Assembly (NCBI GenBank): GCA_013414795.1
Contig: CP058732.1
Location: forward strand, 1,959,950-2,023,949
Source of the DNA: Candidatus Kapaibacterium sp.
GTDB taxonomy: Bacteria > Bacteroidota > Ignavibacteria > Kapaibacteriales > UBA2268
Length of the DNA: 64,000 bases
Reading direction: 5' to 3'
Position 1 is the first letter of the stretch. The number at the start of each line of letters is the position of its first letter. The position numbers were made by a program, and so were the translations under genes. Positions 16,338-45,521 of the stretch are shown here, one piece after another. The notes under the pieces were generated by a model, which was not told the origin of the DNA, made no database searches, and saw nothing but the letters and a program-made list of their open reading frames with translations.

Positions 16338-16388
16338 TGTGCAAAAGAAAAAAATGCAATTTATATAAATCGGAACAAAAAAAGTTAT

Positions 16389-16396
16389 TAATTTTG
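16389..16396 (+). promoter_or_regulatory. Putative -7 promoter element before the TPP riboswitch
   Basis: TAATTTTG ends six bases before the first paired base of the riboswitch (16403), so the transcript would start almost exactly at the aptamer's P1 stem. This is the best positional support for the TAnnTTTG element in the window. Confidence 0.5.
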
Positions 16397-16402
16397 CAGT
16401 GG

Positions 16403-16486
16403 TCCGTTGGGGGTGCTCAACATTAAGTTGGGCTGAGAGGATACCCCTGGAACCTGATCCGGGTAATACCGGCGTAGGGAAACGGA
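16403..16486 (+). ncRNA. TPP (thiamin pyrophosphate, THI-box) riboswitch aptamer
   Basis: Both conserved TPP aptamer blocks are present: GGCTGAGAGGATACCC (16431-16446) and ACCTGATCCGGGTAATACCG, followed by GCGTAGGGAAACGG. P1 is formed by TCCGT (16403-16407) with ACGGA (16482-16486). The aptamer binds thiamin pyrophosphate and turns expression down when the vitamin is plentiful. It lies upstream of a TonB-dependent receptor with no gene between, so that receptor is very probably regulated by thiamin supply. A candidate expression platform lies between 16487 and 16568. Confidence 0.95.
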
Positions 16487-16514
16487 CAAACCCTACATTC
16501 CAGGCGCAATCCTC
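16437..16514 (+). promoter_or_regulatory. Candidate switching helix of the TPP riboswitch
   Basis: GAGGAT inside the aptamer core (16437-16442) is exactly complementary to ATCCTC (16509-16514) downstream, and GU pairs could lengthen the helix. AAACGGA, the 3' side of P1 (16480-16486), is repeated at 16527-16533, where it could compete for the same 5' strand. Both features are what an alternative, ligand-free fold would need. This is inferred from complementarity only. Confidence 0.4.
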
Positions 16515-16568
16515 TTTAATGCCTCCAAACGGATAGTTGATTTGTTAAACTATTCGTGTGGTGGCGCT

Positions 16569-18953
16569 ATGGTAAAAAAACTATCGTTCTGGCTTTGCCT
16601 AATTTTAGGCATATCCAATGCCTTTTCTAGCGAAGAGGCAAGCGACACGCTCAAACAATACTTTCTTCCGAGCATAACAGTTACTTCTACGCGTGCAATT
16701 CGTGGCGAAACGCCAATTCCTTTTTCCCAACTTTCGTACAAGGAATTTATTTCCATCTACTCGACGCAAGATATTCCCCGACTACTCAGCGAAATGCCAT
16801 CAATAATTACCTTTTCGCAAAGTGGAAACGACATTGGTTACTCAAATTTAACTATGCGTGGATTTAATCAACGGAGAATTTCTGTTCTAATCAACGGTAT
16901 TCCGCAAAACGATCCAGAAGACCACAACGTCTACTGGATTGACTTCCCCGACTTCCTGCCGAATGTACAGCAAGTTCAAATTCAACGCGGTGCAGGTTTG
17001 AATAACTATGGACAAGCCGCCATAGGTGGTTCAATTAATTTAAACACTGGTAATTTCCTCGACAAGAAAGGATTAAGGCTTTTCAGTGGTATTGGTTGGC
17101 AGGAATTCGGATATAACGATAATACAACCAAATTACATCCAAATGTTAGCAAATTCTCTGCAGAATTCTCCTCTGGACTTGTTGACAATTACGCTTTCTA
17201 CGGAAGACTTTCTCGAGTTAATTCGCTCGGCTATCGTAATCACTCTTTTGCTTTCCTGAATAGTTACTTTTTCAGTGCCGCAAGGTTCGACAATAATTTT
17301 TCAACACAAGTTAATATTTTTGGTGGACCGATCAATGATGGCTTGGTTTATTATGGTTTACCAAAAAGTTTCATCAAGGACAAGGAGAAACGAAGGTTGA
17401 ATTGGAACTATTGGACTTACGACTCAACTGGTTACCAAATTGCATATTCCTCTGAACGGCGAAAGCAAGAAGTCGAGGAATTTTCACAACCACATTACGA
17501 AATCTTAAACGACTGGCAAATCAATGAAAACTTGCGTTTCCTTTCGGCGCTCTTCTACTACACTGGCGATGGCTACTTCGATTACGATGCATCTTGGGCA
17601 GACACTACAATGTTAAGATTAACCTCTGCCTTTGGTTACCATCTCACTCAAAATCCAACTGGTACAATTTTCCGTGCTTTTGTTGGTAATAAACAAGGCG
17701 GATGGATTCCCAGAATTGTGTTTACTCACGGTAAAAACGAACTTGTTGCAGGAGCTGAAATTCGTTTCCATCGCTCTGAACATTGGGGTAAAATTCGATA
17801 TTCTGAATACTTGCCCGAAAATTATAATCCCGATGAGAAAGTATATTCAAACAATGGTGTCCGAGACATCTTCTCAATCTTTGCAAGAGAAACCATTAAA
17901 CCAAACGATGATTTATCGATTTCGCTCGAAAGTCAACTAACTTACCAACGATATGCTCTTAAAAATGAAAAAGCACGCAACAAGCCTGTGTACTTTAAAG
18001 ACATAAACGGCAACATTGTTGGGGATAATTATCTATTCGACATTAAATACCTTTTTCTCAATCCAAGACTTGGTGTAAATTACAAGGTCAACGACAAATT
18101 AAACATATTTGGGTTCGTTGCTTATACTTCACGGGAACCAAGAATGCATAATCTTTATCGAGCCGAAGATTCATACTTTGGTGCAACACCGCAGTTTGAA
18201 TTTAAGCAAGTCGATGGCGAAATTCGTTATGACTTCAACAAACCTATCTCCAAACCCGAAAAAATGCTCGATATTGAATTTGGCTCAAATATTTCTATTG
18301 CTGATAAACTCGAAGCAAACATTAATTTATTCTGGATGGAGTATTCGGACGAACTTGTTAAAACGGGGAGACTCGACATTTTTGGCAATCCAGTCGAAGA
18401 AAACATACCAAGGACACGACACATTGGCTTGGAATTTGAACTTTCGGCAAACTTGCTCGACAATGAATTCGGCAAACTTGATTTAAAAGGGAATTTCACA
18501 CTCTCTCGCAACAGAATTGTTAAATACGACTTTGTAACATTCGACAGCGTAAGTATTTCGTTTAAAGACAACGCTATTGCTGGTTTCCCAGACTTTATGG
18601 GAAATATTAGGCTTAATTACACACTTAAAAACTTGTATTTCTCCATTTGGGGACATTACGTTGGCTCGTATCGAACGGATAATTACGACAAATTGCTGGT
18701 AGAAAATCCAGATTTAATTCGACATCTTCGTTACTTGGGAGACTATTATTCCGACAACATTTTAGACCCATACTTTCTTTTGAATTTGGACATTGGTTAT
18801 TCGATTAAAAAGATACCATTCTTCCAAGAAATTAGCCTCAAACTGCAAGTTCGCAACCTTTTGAATCGCTTGTATGCTGGCGGTGCAGAAGGGAAAGAAT
18901 TTTTCCCTGGTGCTGAAAGAAATTACTTCTTTGGAATTGAATTAGGTTTGTAA
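16569..18953 (+). CDS. TonB-dependent outer membrane receptor, probably for thiamin or a thiamin precursor
   Basis: Outer-membrane gated porin energised by TonB. From the ATG at 16569 it has 794 residues. An upstream in-frame TTG at 16542 would put nine polar residues before the signal peptide, so I reject it. The signal peptide covers residues 1-20; a TonB-box-like SITVTSTR follows at about 35-42, then a plug domain with MRGFNQRRISVLINGIPQND and an RGAGLNNYGQAAIGGSINL stretch, and a 22-strand barrel to the C-terminus. The substrate is inferred from the TPP riboswitch in front: TPP-regulated receptors are a known class in Bacteroidota. No inner-membrane permease gene is next to it; a terminator follows at once. 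Confidence 0.88.
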   Translation: MVKKLSFWLCLILGISNAFSSEEASDTLKQYFLPSITVTSTRAIRGETPIPFSQLSYKEFISIYSTQDIPRLLSEMPSIITFSQSGNDIGYSNLTMRGFNQRRISVLINGIPQNDPEDHNVYWIDFPDFLPNVQQVQIQRGAGLNNYGQAAIGGSINLNTGNFLDKKGLRLFSGIGWQEFGYNDNTTKLHPNVSKFSAEFSSGLVDNYAFYGRLSRVNSLGYRNHSFAFLNSYFFSAARFDNNFSTQVNIFGGPINDGLVYYGLPKSFIKDKEKRRLNWNYWTYDSTGYQIAYSSERRKQEVEEFSQPHYEILNDWQINENLRFLSALFYYTGDGYFDYDASWADTTMLRLTSAFGYHLTQNPTGTIFRAFVGNKQGGWIPRIVFTHGKNELVAGAEIRFHRSEHWGKIRYSEYLPENYNPDEKVYSNNGVRDIFSIFARETIKPNDDLSISLESQLTYQRYALKNEKARNKPVYFKDINGNIVGDNYLFDIKYLFLNPRLGVNYKVNDKLNIFGFVAYTSREPRMHNLYRAEDSYFGATPQFEFKQVDGEIRYDFNKPISKPEKMLDIEFGSNISIADKLEANINLFWMEYSDELVKTGRLDIFGNPVEENIPRTRHIGLEFELSANLLDNEFGKLDLKGNFTLSRNRIVKYDFVTFDSVSISFKDNAIAGFPDFMGNIRLNYTLKNLYFSIWGHYVGSYRTDNYDKLLVENPDLIRHLRYLGDYYSDNILDPYFLLNLDIGYSIKKIPFFQEISLKLQVRNLLNRLYAGGAEGKEFFPGAERNYFFGIELGL

Positions 18954-18960
18954 TAATTAG

Positions 18961-18990
18961 GAGGCGGGAGTAAATTCCCGCCTCGTTTTT
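18961..18990 (+). terminator. Rho-independent terminator after the TPP-regulated receptor
   Basis: Perfect 9-bp stem: GAGGCGGGA (18961-18969) pairs with TCCCGCCTC (18976-18984), with a six-base loop, followed by GTTTTT. It begins seven bases after the receptor stop and overlaps the end of the convergent yicC gene. Confidence 0.9.
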
Positions 18991-26167: not shown

Positions 26168-27253
26168 TTAATTCTTAATTAAAATTTGGGAAGGATTGAC
26201 ACCAACTGTAACCTTTCGTTTAAACGTTGCGTTCTTGTCATTCCAATCAAATATAATTACCTCGCCTTCAACAGTGTAGTTCTTTGCATTTCCAACCAGT
26301 ATGTATTTGTTTTTAGTATCTACGCATATTGAGTACCAAATTTCGCTTCGTTTTGGGTTTACAATTAGTTCTTCCAATTCATTATTATCTACATTTAAAC
26401 TCCAAACTCTTTCCCCGGAAAGAAAAAACAATTTTCCAGTTTTGTTCTCTATTTGTAAACTTCTTGGAAATGGAAATTTCCATTCCTTGACCCTTTGTAA
26501 AGTCAATAAATCGAACAAAACAATTCCGCCAACTGAATCCTTCAAGGAAGGTAAATGGTTGTACGATACAAATAACCTATGTCTATTTCCATCAATTGCA
26601 ATTTCAATTGGGTTTGGTGCGACAAACAAATTTGCAACCTCTTTCCCAGCATTTACGTCAACTATAGAAAGAGTTCCAGCCTTGGGTTCGCTGGCTCTAT
26701 AATCACCATATCCAGAATTTGCAACGTATAACTGACCATTGAAATACTCCACAAATTCGGGTGCTGGTCCAACAAGTATCGTTTTTTCGATTTTTTTACT
26801 TGAAATATTTAAAATGTAGACACAATCTTTGTATAAATCTGTAATTACAACAATTGAATCATTAATTATTGCCAGGTGTCTCGGTGCAGAATTTCCTTCA
26901 AATGCAAAGTATCCCAATAACTTACCATCTCGAACATCGAAATATTCAAGGGCTTTCGATGTAGTAGCAACAACGAAGAAAGTATCTCCTTTCAATGCAA
27001 TGTCGTTGCCAATATCTCCAATTTTAAAATTTTTATTGACAATGGAAGTAAAATCATTCTGAACATCAAATGTAATCAAATTCAACTTGCTCACTGTTGA
27101 ATTGTTATAACCCCAAAGACCCTCGCAAAGAATAAGTGCAAAGTTGGAATTTGTTGTGTCTGGAATAGAAATATCGTTACTGTTTGTGTTCTCCCTGCAA
27201 GAAAAGATAGCCAAAATCAAAAACAGAAAATATATTTTTAAGTTTGTATTCAT
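26168..27253 (-). CDS. Lipoprotein with YncE-like beta-propeller
   Basis: 361 residues. The N-terminal hydrophobic stretch ends in a lipobox (AIFSC, Cys at about 19), predicting a lipid-anchored envelope protein. The rest consists of repeated beta-propeller blades with patterns such as PAPEFVEYFNGQLYVANSGY, VAPNPIEIAIDGNRHRLFVS and VGVNPSQILI, like the YVTN/YncE family. Such proteins bind partners or ligands rather than act as enzymes. It stands alone, divergent from pdxA (26 bases apart). The role is not known. Confidence 0.72.
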   Translation of the reverse strand: MNTNLKIYFLFLILAIFSCRENTNSNDISIPDTTNSNFALILCEGLWGYNNSTVSKLNLITFDVQNDFTSIVNKNFKIGDIGNDIALKGDTFFVVATTSKALEYFDVRDGKLLGYFAFEGNSAPRHLAIINDSIVVITDLYKDCVYILNISSKKIEKTILVGPAPEFVEYFNGQLYVANSGYGDYRASEPKAGTLSIVDVNAGKEVANLFVAPNPIEIAIDGNRHRLFVSYNHLPSLKDSVGGIVLFDLLTLQRVKEWKFPFPRSLQIENKTGKLFFLSGERVWSLNVDNNELEELIVNPKRSEIWYSICVDTKNKYILVGNAKNYTVEGEVIIFDWNDKNATFKRKVTVGVNPSQILIKN

Positions 27254-42686: not shown

Positions 42687-45521
42687 CTAGAAAATACTAT
42701 AAGAAATTGAAAATGATATAGTTGTTCCAAATTTATTAATTGACCAGGTCCTTCCGTTTTGCTGGTATACAGTTTCTGCATTCAATATGTTCTTCAAACT
42801 CAATCTTAGGTCAAGAGAACCAATTTTTTGACCAATTAACAGATCGAGGTAATTTTGCGGCAATTCATATATGTGTGGGTCCTTAGCTTCGAAAACACCA
42901 ACTTGCGAGACACGAACAATTCTCTTGCCAAAAGTGTAGTAGGTTAAAGAAAGCAGAGTTCCAGATTTTTGATTGTTGTAAAACAAACCAAAATTGAGTG
43001 TGTATGGAGATTGTCCCCACATTGGTCGGCGGTCTTCTGTTCCTTTGCCACCTTGGTTAACTTCAATAACCGAACTAATTAAAGAGGCGTTGCCGACAAA
43101 ACTCAAATCGTCCAAAGCCTGCAAGATGAAACCAAGATTTTTTCTTAATTCGAATTCAAGACCCAGATTTTTTGCAAGTCCATTAGCATTGGCAAATGTT
43201 CGGGTTAATTCACTTTGTTGGGGATAGATAGTCTCTTCAATTGCATTTTCAAATGCTTTGTAGAAAAATCCTATCGAATAAAGTTCATTGTGCGAAGGAA
43301 AATATTCAAATCTTAAATCCACATTTGTAATATTTGCTCTTTTAAGGTTTGGATTTCCTTGTATTAGTGTCAATTCAGAATAATCGTAAAAGGCAAATGG
43401 AGCAAATTCACGGAACGATGGTCTTGCAAGAGTACGAGATAGATTTAACCTGATGTTTGCATTCTTTGTCGGCATAATAAGCAAATTGAAAGCAGGTAGA
43501 TAATCAATTGTCGGATAATCAACATTTATTGGTGAATCATTTATGTCGTGACTATTCAACAATATTTGATCTCTTTCAACTCTTAACCCAGTAATCAAAC
43601 GTAATGGAATATTCAGCAAATTAAATCTGTAATCAATCATAAAGTAGCCAGCAAACAACTTTTCACTCGCATTGTATGAATCGCTAAGTTTTGAATCTTC
43701 ACCGATTCTCAAACCATCTTCAAAAGAAAAGTTTTCCGGAGCAAGTATTTTATCTATATTGTCATAGGAGGAAAGTAATTCATAAACATCCTCGCGGAGA
43801 TAAGGAGACATTGTGATTGTTATCGAACGAGCATTAAAAGATCTTTGCTTTCTTTCAAAAAGCCCACCAAATTTAACTTTCAAGTTTCCAAACTCTCTTG
43901 ACAAATTTAGATTGGCAACAACATTTTCTTCTGTTGTATAGGAATAGAATCTACCAGCACGTGTGCCATCACCTTGTTGATTTGCAAGAAGTTCCAATAT
44001 AAATGGAGTATTGGGATCGTATTCCAAATCTGCCAGTTGTCGAGAAAAACGAAACCTTCGATAGTCTGGTTCGTCTCGATTTAATTTCGAAAAACCAACA
44101 CTCCACTCTGCTTTTAAACTTACTGGCATTATTACATTGTTACCTTGGACTGTAGTATTGAATAATGTTTTTTGCGTGTAATGCATTGAAATATTTTTAA
44201 ATTCCAGGAATTGATAACCCAAATCTTTTCCATCAATTTGCAGGACCTCGTCTTCTGCATTATTTACAATTGAAGTTTTTATGGAAAAAATTTGATTATC
44301 TGGTGTTTTAATCGATAGATTCAACAACCCTGCTGAATTTGTATTGACATTTGACCGACTTCCAGTGGTTTTGTATAATGTATCAAAATTTGAAAGGTAA
44401 TTTATTCTTCTGATAGAATTGACAACATTATCTACCGAGTACAACCCGTTGGCAGTCAACCCGATGAAATAATCACCAATCTCGAAGGTATTCGAGTATT
44501 GCATATTGAAATTCTTATTATCCAATGGGGTTATAGTTCGAGATTTAAGTTTCAAGGTTTTGTTATTTAAGGAGCGGGCAATTGATTCATACTTTTGCAA
44601 AGCACCAGTTGTATCGAATGGGTTATTGGCAAGGTTCAACAAATTGTTAAATTCTCTTCGATTTGATGGGAAGTCGCTGGGCAATTTCCTTGTTCCATCG
44701 TCCACTCCCAACCAATCTAACTTACCCCCCTCGTATCCTCTAAACGCATCCTTTTTAAAAGTTGTAACAGAATTGCTTTTTGAACCTATACTTACTTTGA
44801 AAGTTTTACCAGAGGGAAAATCGACGGTGTTCAGTTGAATCAAACCACCAGCAAAAGTACCAGGCAAATCTGGTGTGAACGACTTGACCAAACTAACGTT
44901 TTCAACAAAATCACCTGGGTATAAGTCAAAGGAAAAGGCGCGCTTATCAGTCTCAGTCGAAGGAAGATTAACGCCATTAAGGATAGCAGAATTGTAACGC
45001 TCGCCAACACCGCGGACAAGAATAAAATCGTTGAACATTGTCACACCAGAAATCTTTTGCAGTGCAGAGCTTAAATTCTTGTCGGGCAATCTCTTAATTT
45101 CGGAAATTGAGATTCCATCCATAAGATTGCCAGAGTTCTTCCTTAAATTCAGCAAGGCAGATTCGTTATCGTTGATACGAAATGCTTCGACAGTAACTTC
45201 TTGTGTTGATTTAATTTCTGGGTAGAGGGGAATAGGAATTTCGCTCTCTTTGTCGGCAACAATATCGTTGATAATTTTAGTCTGATAACCCATATAAGTT
45301 ACTTTTAAGGAATATTTCGATGGTTTAATGTTAGAGATTCGAAAACGCCCTTTCGCATCGGTAAACGTTCCTTTGACAAGTTCAATGATTTGAACAGTGG
45401 CACCTGCCAAAGGTTCAGACGTTTCCGCATCGTAAACTCTACCTTGAAGACTGAAAGTCGCCTCGTTTGAGAAACAGTAAACAGTAAATGCAAAAAACAC
45501 TACAAATACGTACTTTAACAT
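42687..45521 (-). CDS. TonB-dependent receptor with carboxypeptidase-regulatory-like domain
   Basis: 944 residues. Signal peptide 1-20; carboxypeptidase-regulatory-like beta-sandwich at about 22-110 (FSLQGRVYDAETSEPLAGAT and GTFTDAKGRFRISNI); plug domain at about 125-250 with MFNDFILVRGVGERYNSAIL; and a C-terminal barrel ending in a typical aromatic strand. It resembles the FCB receptor family with the FDLYPGDFVENVSLVKSF and GTFAGGLIQLNT plug motifs. Together with the T9SS cargo that follows it forms a probable two-gene operon for import of an unknown compound. No SusD-like lipoprotein is present. Confidence 0.86.
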   Translation of the reverse strand: MLKYVFVVFFAFTVYCFSNEATFSLQGRVYDAETSEPLAGATVQIIELVKGTFTDAKGRFRISNIKPSKYSLKVTYMGYQTKIINDIVADKESEIPIPLYPEIKSTQEVTVEAFRINDNESALLNLRKNSGNLMDGISISEIKRLPDKNLSSALQKISGVTMFNDFILVRGVGERYNSAILNGVNLPSTETDKRAFSFDLYPGDFVENVSLVKSFTPDLPGTFAGGLIQLNTVDFPSGKTFKVSIGSKSNSVTTFKKDAFRGYEGGKLDWLGVDDGTRKLPSDFPSNRREFNNLLNLANNPFDTTGALQKYESIARSLNNKTLKLKSRTITPLDNKNFNMQYSNTFEIGDYFIGLTANGLYSVDNVVNSIRRINYLSNFDTLYKTTGSRSNVNTNSAGLLNLSIKTPDNQIFSIKTSIVNNAEDEVLQIDGKDLGYQFLEFKNISMHYTQKTLFNTTVQGNNVIMPVSLKAEWSVGFSKLNRDEPDYRRFRFSRQLADLEYDPNTPFILELLANQQGDGTRAGRFYSYTTEENVVANLNLSREFGNLKVKFGGLFERKQRSFNARSITITMSPYLREDVYELLSSYDNIDKILAPENFSFEDGLRIGEDSKLSDSYNASEKLFAGYFMIDYRFNLLNIPLRLITGLRVERDQILLNSHDINDSPINVDYPTIDYLPAFNLLIMPTKNANIRLNLSRTLARPSFREFAPFAFYDYSELTLIQGNPNLKRANITNVDLRFEYFPSHNELYSIGFFYKAFENAIEETIYPQQSELTRTFANANGLAKNLGLEFELRKNLGFILQALDDLSFVGNASLISSVIEVNQGGKGTEDRRPMWGQSPYTLNFGLFYNNQKSGTLLSLTYYTFGKRIVRVSQVGVFEAKDPHIYELPQNYLDLLIGQKIGSLDLRLSLKNILNAETVYQQNGRTWSINKFGTTISFSISYSIF

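Follow-up and report, generated by a model that had tools for sequence, protein, structure and literature searches.

A stand-alone TonB-dependent receptor gene behind the only TPP riboswitch of a Kapabacteria genome: predicted thiamin import with an unlinked SSS symporter as candidate partner

Results

Our window, the whole 64-kb stretch of DNA analysed here, contains one Rfam match only (cmscan), which is to the TPP riboswitch model RF00059 and lies upstream of a gene for a TonB-dependent outer-membrane receptor (Table 1). The match covers the full model (1-105) and exceeds the gathering score of 54.3 bits, so that the aptamer, which a sequence-only reading had judged complete and had proposed to check with Infernal around 16380-16580, is confirmed from its sequence as a TPP riboswitch with predicted TPP binding and a predicted effect on expression. 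Directly 5' of it sits TAnnTTTG, which we take to be the Bacteroidota-type core promoter motif and which 34 of 68 loci have in the 28 nt preceding the aptamer, versus 1.3% of background windows. Matches to sigma-70-type promoters number 8 (7.0 in shuffles) and none of them precedes the aptamer.

We place the receptor start at the ATG, the mechanical open reading frame with the same end starting at a TTG (16542). Its Plug (PF07715, 50 bits) and TonB_dep_Rec_b-barrel (PF00593, 82 bits) domains assign the product to the TonB-dependent receptors, and its predicted structure is that of a standard member (AlphaFold2, pLDDT 85, pTM 0.84). Fold comparison puts it closest to PqqU/YncD (9c4o, 6v81), Fiu and FecA, among which PqqU/YncD is itself a receptor for a cofactor and shares about 16% identity with the window receptor. 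Such likeness is shared by TonB-dependent receptors at large and gives no clue to the ligand, so we dropped any ligand assignment from the fold.

Between riboswitch and downstream terminator, which consists of a 10-bp GC-rich stem and a T tail, there is no gene besides that for the receptor, and its flanks encode a PASTA-domain protein and a YicC-like endoribonuclease (Pfam). The unit is thus one gene long, which bears out the earlier claim that the receptor alone precedes a strong terminator. Neither pnuT nor a thiamin kinase gene adjoins it, again as had been claimed, but the kinase step does exist elsewhere in the genome (see below).

The genome has 12 TonB-dependent receptors. A second one in the window (42687-45521, minus strand; 944 aa) has a carboxypeptidase-like N-terminus; after it comes a 681-aa secreted protein whose C-terminal domain is sorting-like. 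A predicted lipoprotein, possibly a YncE-like beta-propeller (26168-27253, minus strand), adjoins no receptor and has no Pfam match and weak NCBIfam matches (choice-of-anchor I, lactonase-type NosZ).

Table 1. Features of the riboswitch-receptor locus (window coordinates)
Feature	Position	Strand	Evidence
Promoter -7 like element TAATTTTG (TAnnTTTG), directly 5' of aptamer	16389-16396	+	
TPP riboswitch aptamer (RF00059)	16399-16497	+	cmscan 78.8 bits, E 7e-14
Aptamer P1	16404-16408 paired with 16481-16485	+	
CCCTAC, complementary to aptamer GTAGGG (16474-16479)	16491-16496	+	sequence, minimum-energy fold
Switching strand TGCCTCCAAACGGATA, complementary to aptamer 5' strand GTCCGTTGGGGGT (16402-16414)	16520-16535	+	duplex -20 kcal/mol
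Hairpin, 5' arm formed by switching strand, 3' arm over ribosome-binding region upstream of ATG 16569	16521-16565	+	
TonB-dependent outer-membrane receptor, 794 aa, predicted thiamin importer	16569-18953	+	Pfam, fold, orthologues behind TPP riboswitch
Intrinsic terminator GAGGCGGGAGTAAATTCCCGCCTC then GTTTTTATT	18961-18984	+	terminator scan

The leader between aptamer and start codon folds at -23.4 kcal/mol (z -3.2) and contains a strand that repeats the P1 3' strand AAACGGA (16480-16486) and can engage in two mutually exclusive pairings, one with the aptamer 5' strand and the other within the start-codon hairpin. A second ligand-free pairing, possibly, is that between CCCTAC, which is kept in same-genus species, and the GTAGGG of the aptamer. 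Over 63 leaders the switching complementarity is stronger than in shuffled sequences (mean z -1.9; 60% below -1.645), with a control segment that differs little from them. With the switching strand masked, accessibility of the start site rises in 38 of 61 leaders, falls in 5 and stays much the same in the others. Swapping the switching-helix motif between leaders separates own from swapped with p 0.06, and gapless helix length is near that of shuffles (46% versus 41%). These last two outcomes being weak or mixed, we do not claim covariation of the helix, and the switching step is one that we infer.

A scan for terminators between aptamer and start codon found none, which favours translational over transcriptional control of the receptor. 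Termination of transcription could draw on the strong hairpins seen in leaders, that of the window included, but besides the negative scan the hairpin of the window lacks a T tract and leads directly into the ATG, and we regard this mode as unlikely. Control at the level of receptor translation is therefore the reading that we favour. Four leaders from the longer-operon group (L148, L165, L178, L179) carry very stable hairpins (z -4 to -6), and their expression platform may differ.

In a sample of 54 genomes (27 genera) from the family, 45 have a TPP riboswitch and always exactly one each. All 30 loci of the first set have a receptor orthologue behind it, and so do 38 of 40 longer ones (46-78% identity), with other genes around the pair varying between genera. 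When each genome is counted once, riboswitch and receptor go together in at least 41 of the 45, two genomes having been left out of this count and the locus of G033 being cut by a contig end. Similarly, the riboswitch lies upstream of 79 of 80 named receptor homologues from MAGs labelled Kapabacteria, Ignavibacteria, Chlorobi-group or Bacteroidota, and the remaining one starts inside the gene at a contig end. A stand-alone receptor gene is the rule in this family.

Two departures in gene content are worth recording. In G034, the sole TPP riboswitch (L061) precedes thiS-thiC and not a receptor, so that this genome (84% complete) is either a thiamin maker amid apparent auxotrophs or includes a misbinned contig. 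In one genus (L051, L056, L058), the receptor is followed by one to three secreted-looking proteins that are related to one another and about 200 aa long; one such protein tested (L143, same species as L051) has no Pfam match.

The source genome (2.66 Mb, single contig, 97.65% complete) contains no TPP riboswitch other than that of the window. Genome-wide family searches found no ThiC, ThiE or ThiB-type binding protein and no PF04973 match, hence no PnuC/PnuT-family gene, which sets the genome apart from PnuT-partnered salvage, while thiamin pyrophosphokinase (TPK) is encoded about 153 kb from the receptor. With none of these found and TPK present, the bacterium, a relative of Candidatus Kapabacteria, looks like a thiamin auxotroph, and the simplest reading of its gene content is import of thiamin followed by its phosphorylation. 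Of the 54 family genomes, 50 have TPK; strong ThiE matches are confined to three (G016, G017, G049), all without a TPP riboswitch.

We accordingly predict thiamin as the cargo of the receptor, which retains one half of the earlier suggestion that it takes up thiamin or a pyrimidine or thiazole precursor. The other half, or uptake of a phosphorylated vitamer, may appeal to a receptor fold that does not reveal the ligand and to TPP riboswitches whose targets include precursor transporters, for instance ThiV (for HMP) of SAR11 (PMC11452348). Against this, there is no ThiC and no ThiE to join the moieties, so that the pyrimidine and thiazole halves would be of no use if imported; TPK, in turn, is nearly general in the family, and in 14 relatives the gene immediately after that for the receptor is TPK-like. 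To our minds a cargo other than thiamin is quite improbable, even more so than control by termination. Uptake of TMP or TPP, with dephosphorylation in the periplasm, is conceivable. Thiamin itself remains the predicted substrate.

The 14 loci just mentioned are more distant ones (six were Pfam-tested for TPK), and in most of them the next gene encodes a membrane protein. The operon order in these Ignavibacteria-type relatives is riboswitch, receptor, TPK and then either an SSS sodium:solute symporter (PF00474), as in most, or a PnuC-family protein (PF04973), as in L170 and L180; L172 and L175 have small membrane proteins resembling PnuC-family ones in this slot. Linkage of the receptor to thiamin salvage genes is hence found in distant relatives and not in the source genome. 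A slot that can hold either family suggests a shared role, most likely thiamin transport.

The source genome has a single orthologue of the operon SSS proteins (1505159-1506538, minus strand; E 2e-115), the only match with their profile, at 470 kb from the receptor and with no riboswitch on it. Orthologues at 245 bits or more occur in 42 of the 54 family genomes and form, together with the operon SSS proteins, one clade apart from paralogues (support 0.97). By its SSF domain (PF00474) and its place in the TPP-operon SSS clade, the source-genome protein is a ThiV-like candidate. In the window genus, the SSS is divergent (376-394 bits versus 424-497 for full-length members outside the genus) and its gene is linked to no thiamin gene, both of which count against the assignment.

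Absence of the SSS gene goes along with presence of other thiamin functions, as ThiE or a PnuC-family gene is present in 7 of 12 genomes without it versus 1 of 42 with it (Fisher p 3e-5, genomes treated as unrelated). The sole SSS-bearing exception is G033, where a TonB receptor, PnuC and a NadR-like gene lie in a row (L226, 2847-6518); because of these neighbours we rejected this PnuC as a PnuT and read the operon as one likely for nicotinamide riboside uptake. Also rejected as a transporter was a membrane protein that neighbours TPK in several genomes, which is CdsA-like and was named from its sequence.

We therefore consider the unlinked SSS orthologue the most promising candidate for moving thiamin across the inner membrane in the source genome, a role that we infer. 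This revises the view that the receptor is cut off from any inner-membrane step: the step is probably present, yet unlinked. Conceivably, some other, unrecognised transporter fulfils it and the SSS protein carries another solute, since SSS proteins carry many and the gene is both unlinked and unregulated here; moreover, five genomes (G002, G007, G020, G034, G043) have neither SSS orthologue nor ThiE nor PnuC family, G020 being 76% complete. What speaks against this is the presence of the same SSS clade in the TPP operon of sister lineages, in a slot elsewhere filled by a PnuC-family protein, as well as the association of SSS absence with ThiE or PnuC presence. On balance, another transporter is a possibility that we find doubtful, and the SSS orthologue is our preferred partner for the receptor.

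Discussion

Our findings suggest a scheme, which as a whole we believe to be probable, in which an auxotroph imports thiamin through a receptor under a translational riboswitch and completes the route with an unlinked SSS symporter followed by TPK. When TPP is low, the switching strand would pair with the aptamer 5' strand, thus blocking the start-codon hairpin and permitting translation of the receptor; when TPP is high, the aptamer would close and free the same strand to fold over the ribosome-binding site, so that receptor synthesis would stop. The receptor would use TonB energy to move thiamin into the periplasm, from where the SSS sodium symporter, itself free of riboswitch control, would most likely take it across the inner membrane for conversion into TPP by TPK.

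The principle of a TPP-controlled lone receptor is already known. In Bacteroides thetaiotaomicron, the outer-membrane receptor OMthi (BT2390) is under TPP control and split from pnuT-tnr3 (PMC5613172), which qualifies the notion that TPP-regulated receptors usually stand beside pnuT and a thiamin kinase gene. OMthi and the window receptor are alike in having a TPP riboswitch upstream and a transcript of their own, a likeness of arrangement. Combined loss of OMthi and biosynthesis causes growth defects at low thiamin (PMC5613172). OMthi and pnuT transcripts hardly changed with thiamin (PMC5613172), which counts against our scheme, although regulation of translation would escape a count of transcripts. 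In contrast to the source genome with its single TPP riboswitch, B. thetaiotaomicron also has TPP-controlled biosynthesis and pnuT-tnr3 operons; the source genome lacks PnuT as well as ThiE and ThiC and has the SSS symporter as likely partner. Bacteroidota operons that place genes for receptor, kinase and inner-membrane transporter behind a single TPP riboswitch, as L170 and L180 do with PnuC-family proteins, are absent from the source genome, and in most operon-bearing relatives the SSS takes the transporter slot.

An SSS symporter tied to vitamin B1 has a precedent in ThiV of SAR11, which is assigned to HMP and bears a TPP riboswitch itself (PMC11452348). Known HMP/thiamin symporters share the residues Tyr78, Asp139 and Phe254 (SiaT numbering; PMC11452348). 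By family our candidate resembles ThiV, both being SSS members connected with TPP riboswitches and with uptake of vitamin B1; unlike ThiV, it shares an operon with TPK and receptor in relatives and has no riboswitch of its own in the source genome.

What is new, then, is a one-gene TPP regulon kept across a family, together with its candidate SSS partner; in the literature searched, we found no paper describing this combination. The broader proposal, that in this Kapabacteria family a single outer-membrane gene under translational control is all that is left of the thiamin regulon, with an unregulated SSS completing the route, is one to which we would give an even chance. If true, vitamin B1 supply would be set only at the outer membrane across the family, a family-wide case of vitamin regulation acting there alone, and the SSS would be a thiamin transporter not described for this group. 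It fills the gap left by the sequence-only reading with a concrete candidate for inner-membrane thiamin transport in Kapabacteria and Ignavibacteria without PnuT. The scheme also predicts that these uncultured bacteria would depend on thiamin from their neighbours.
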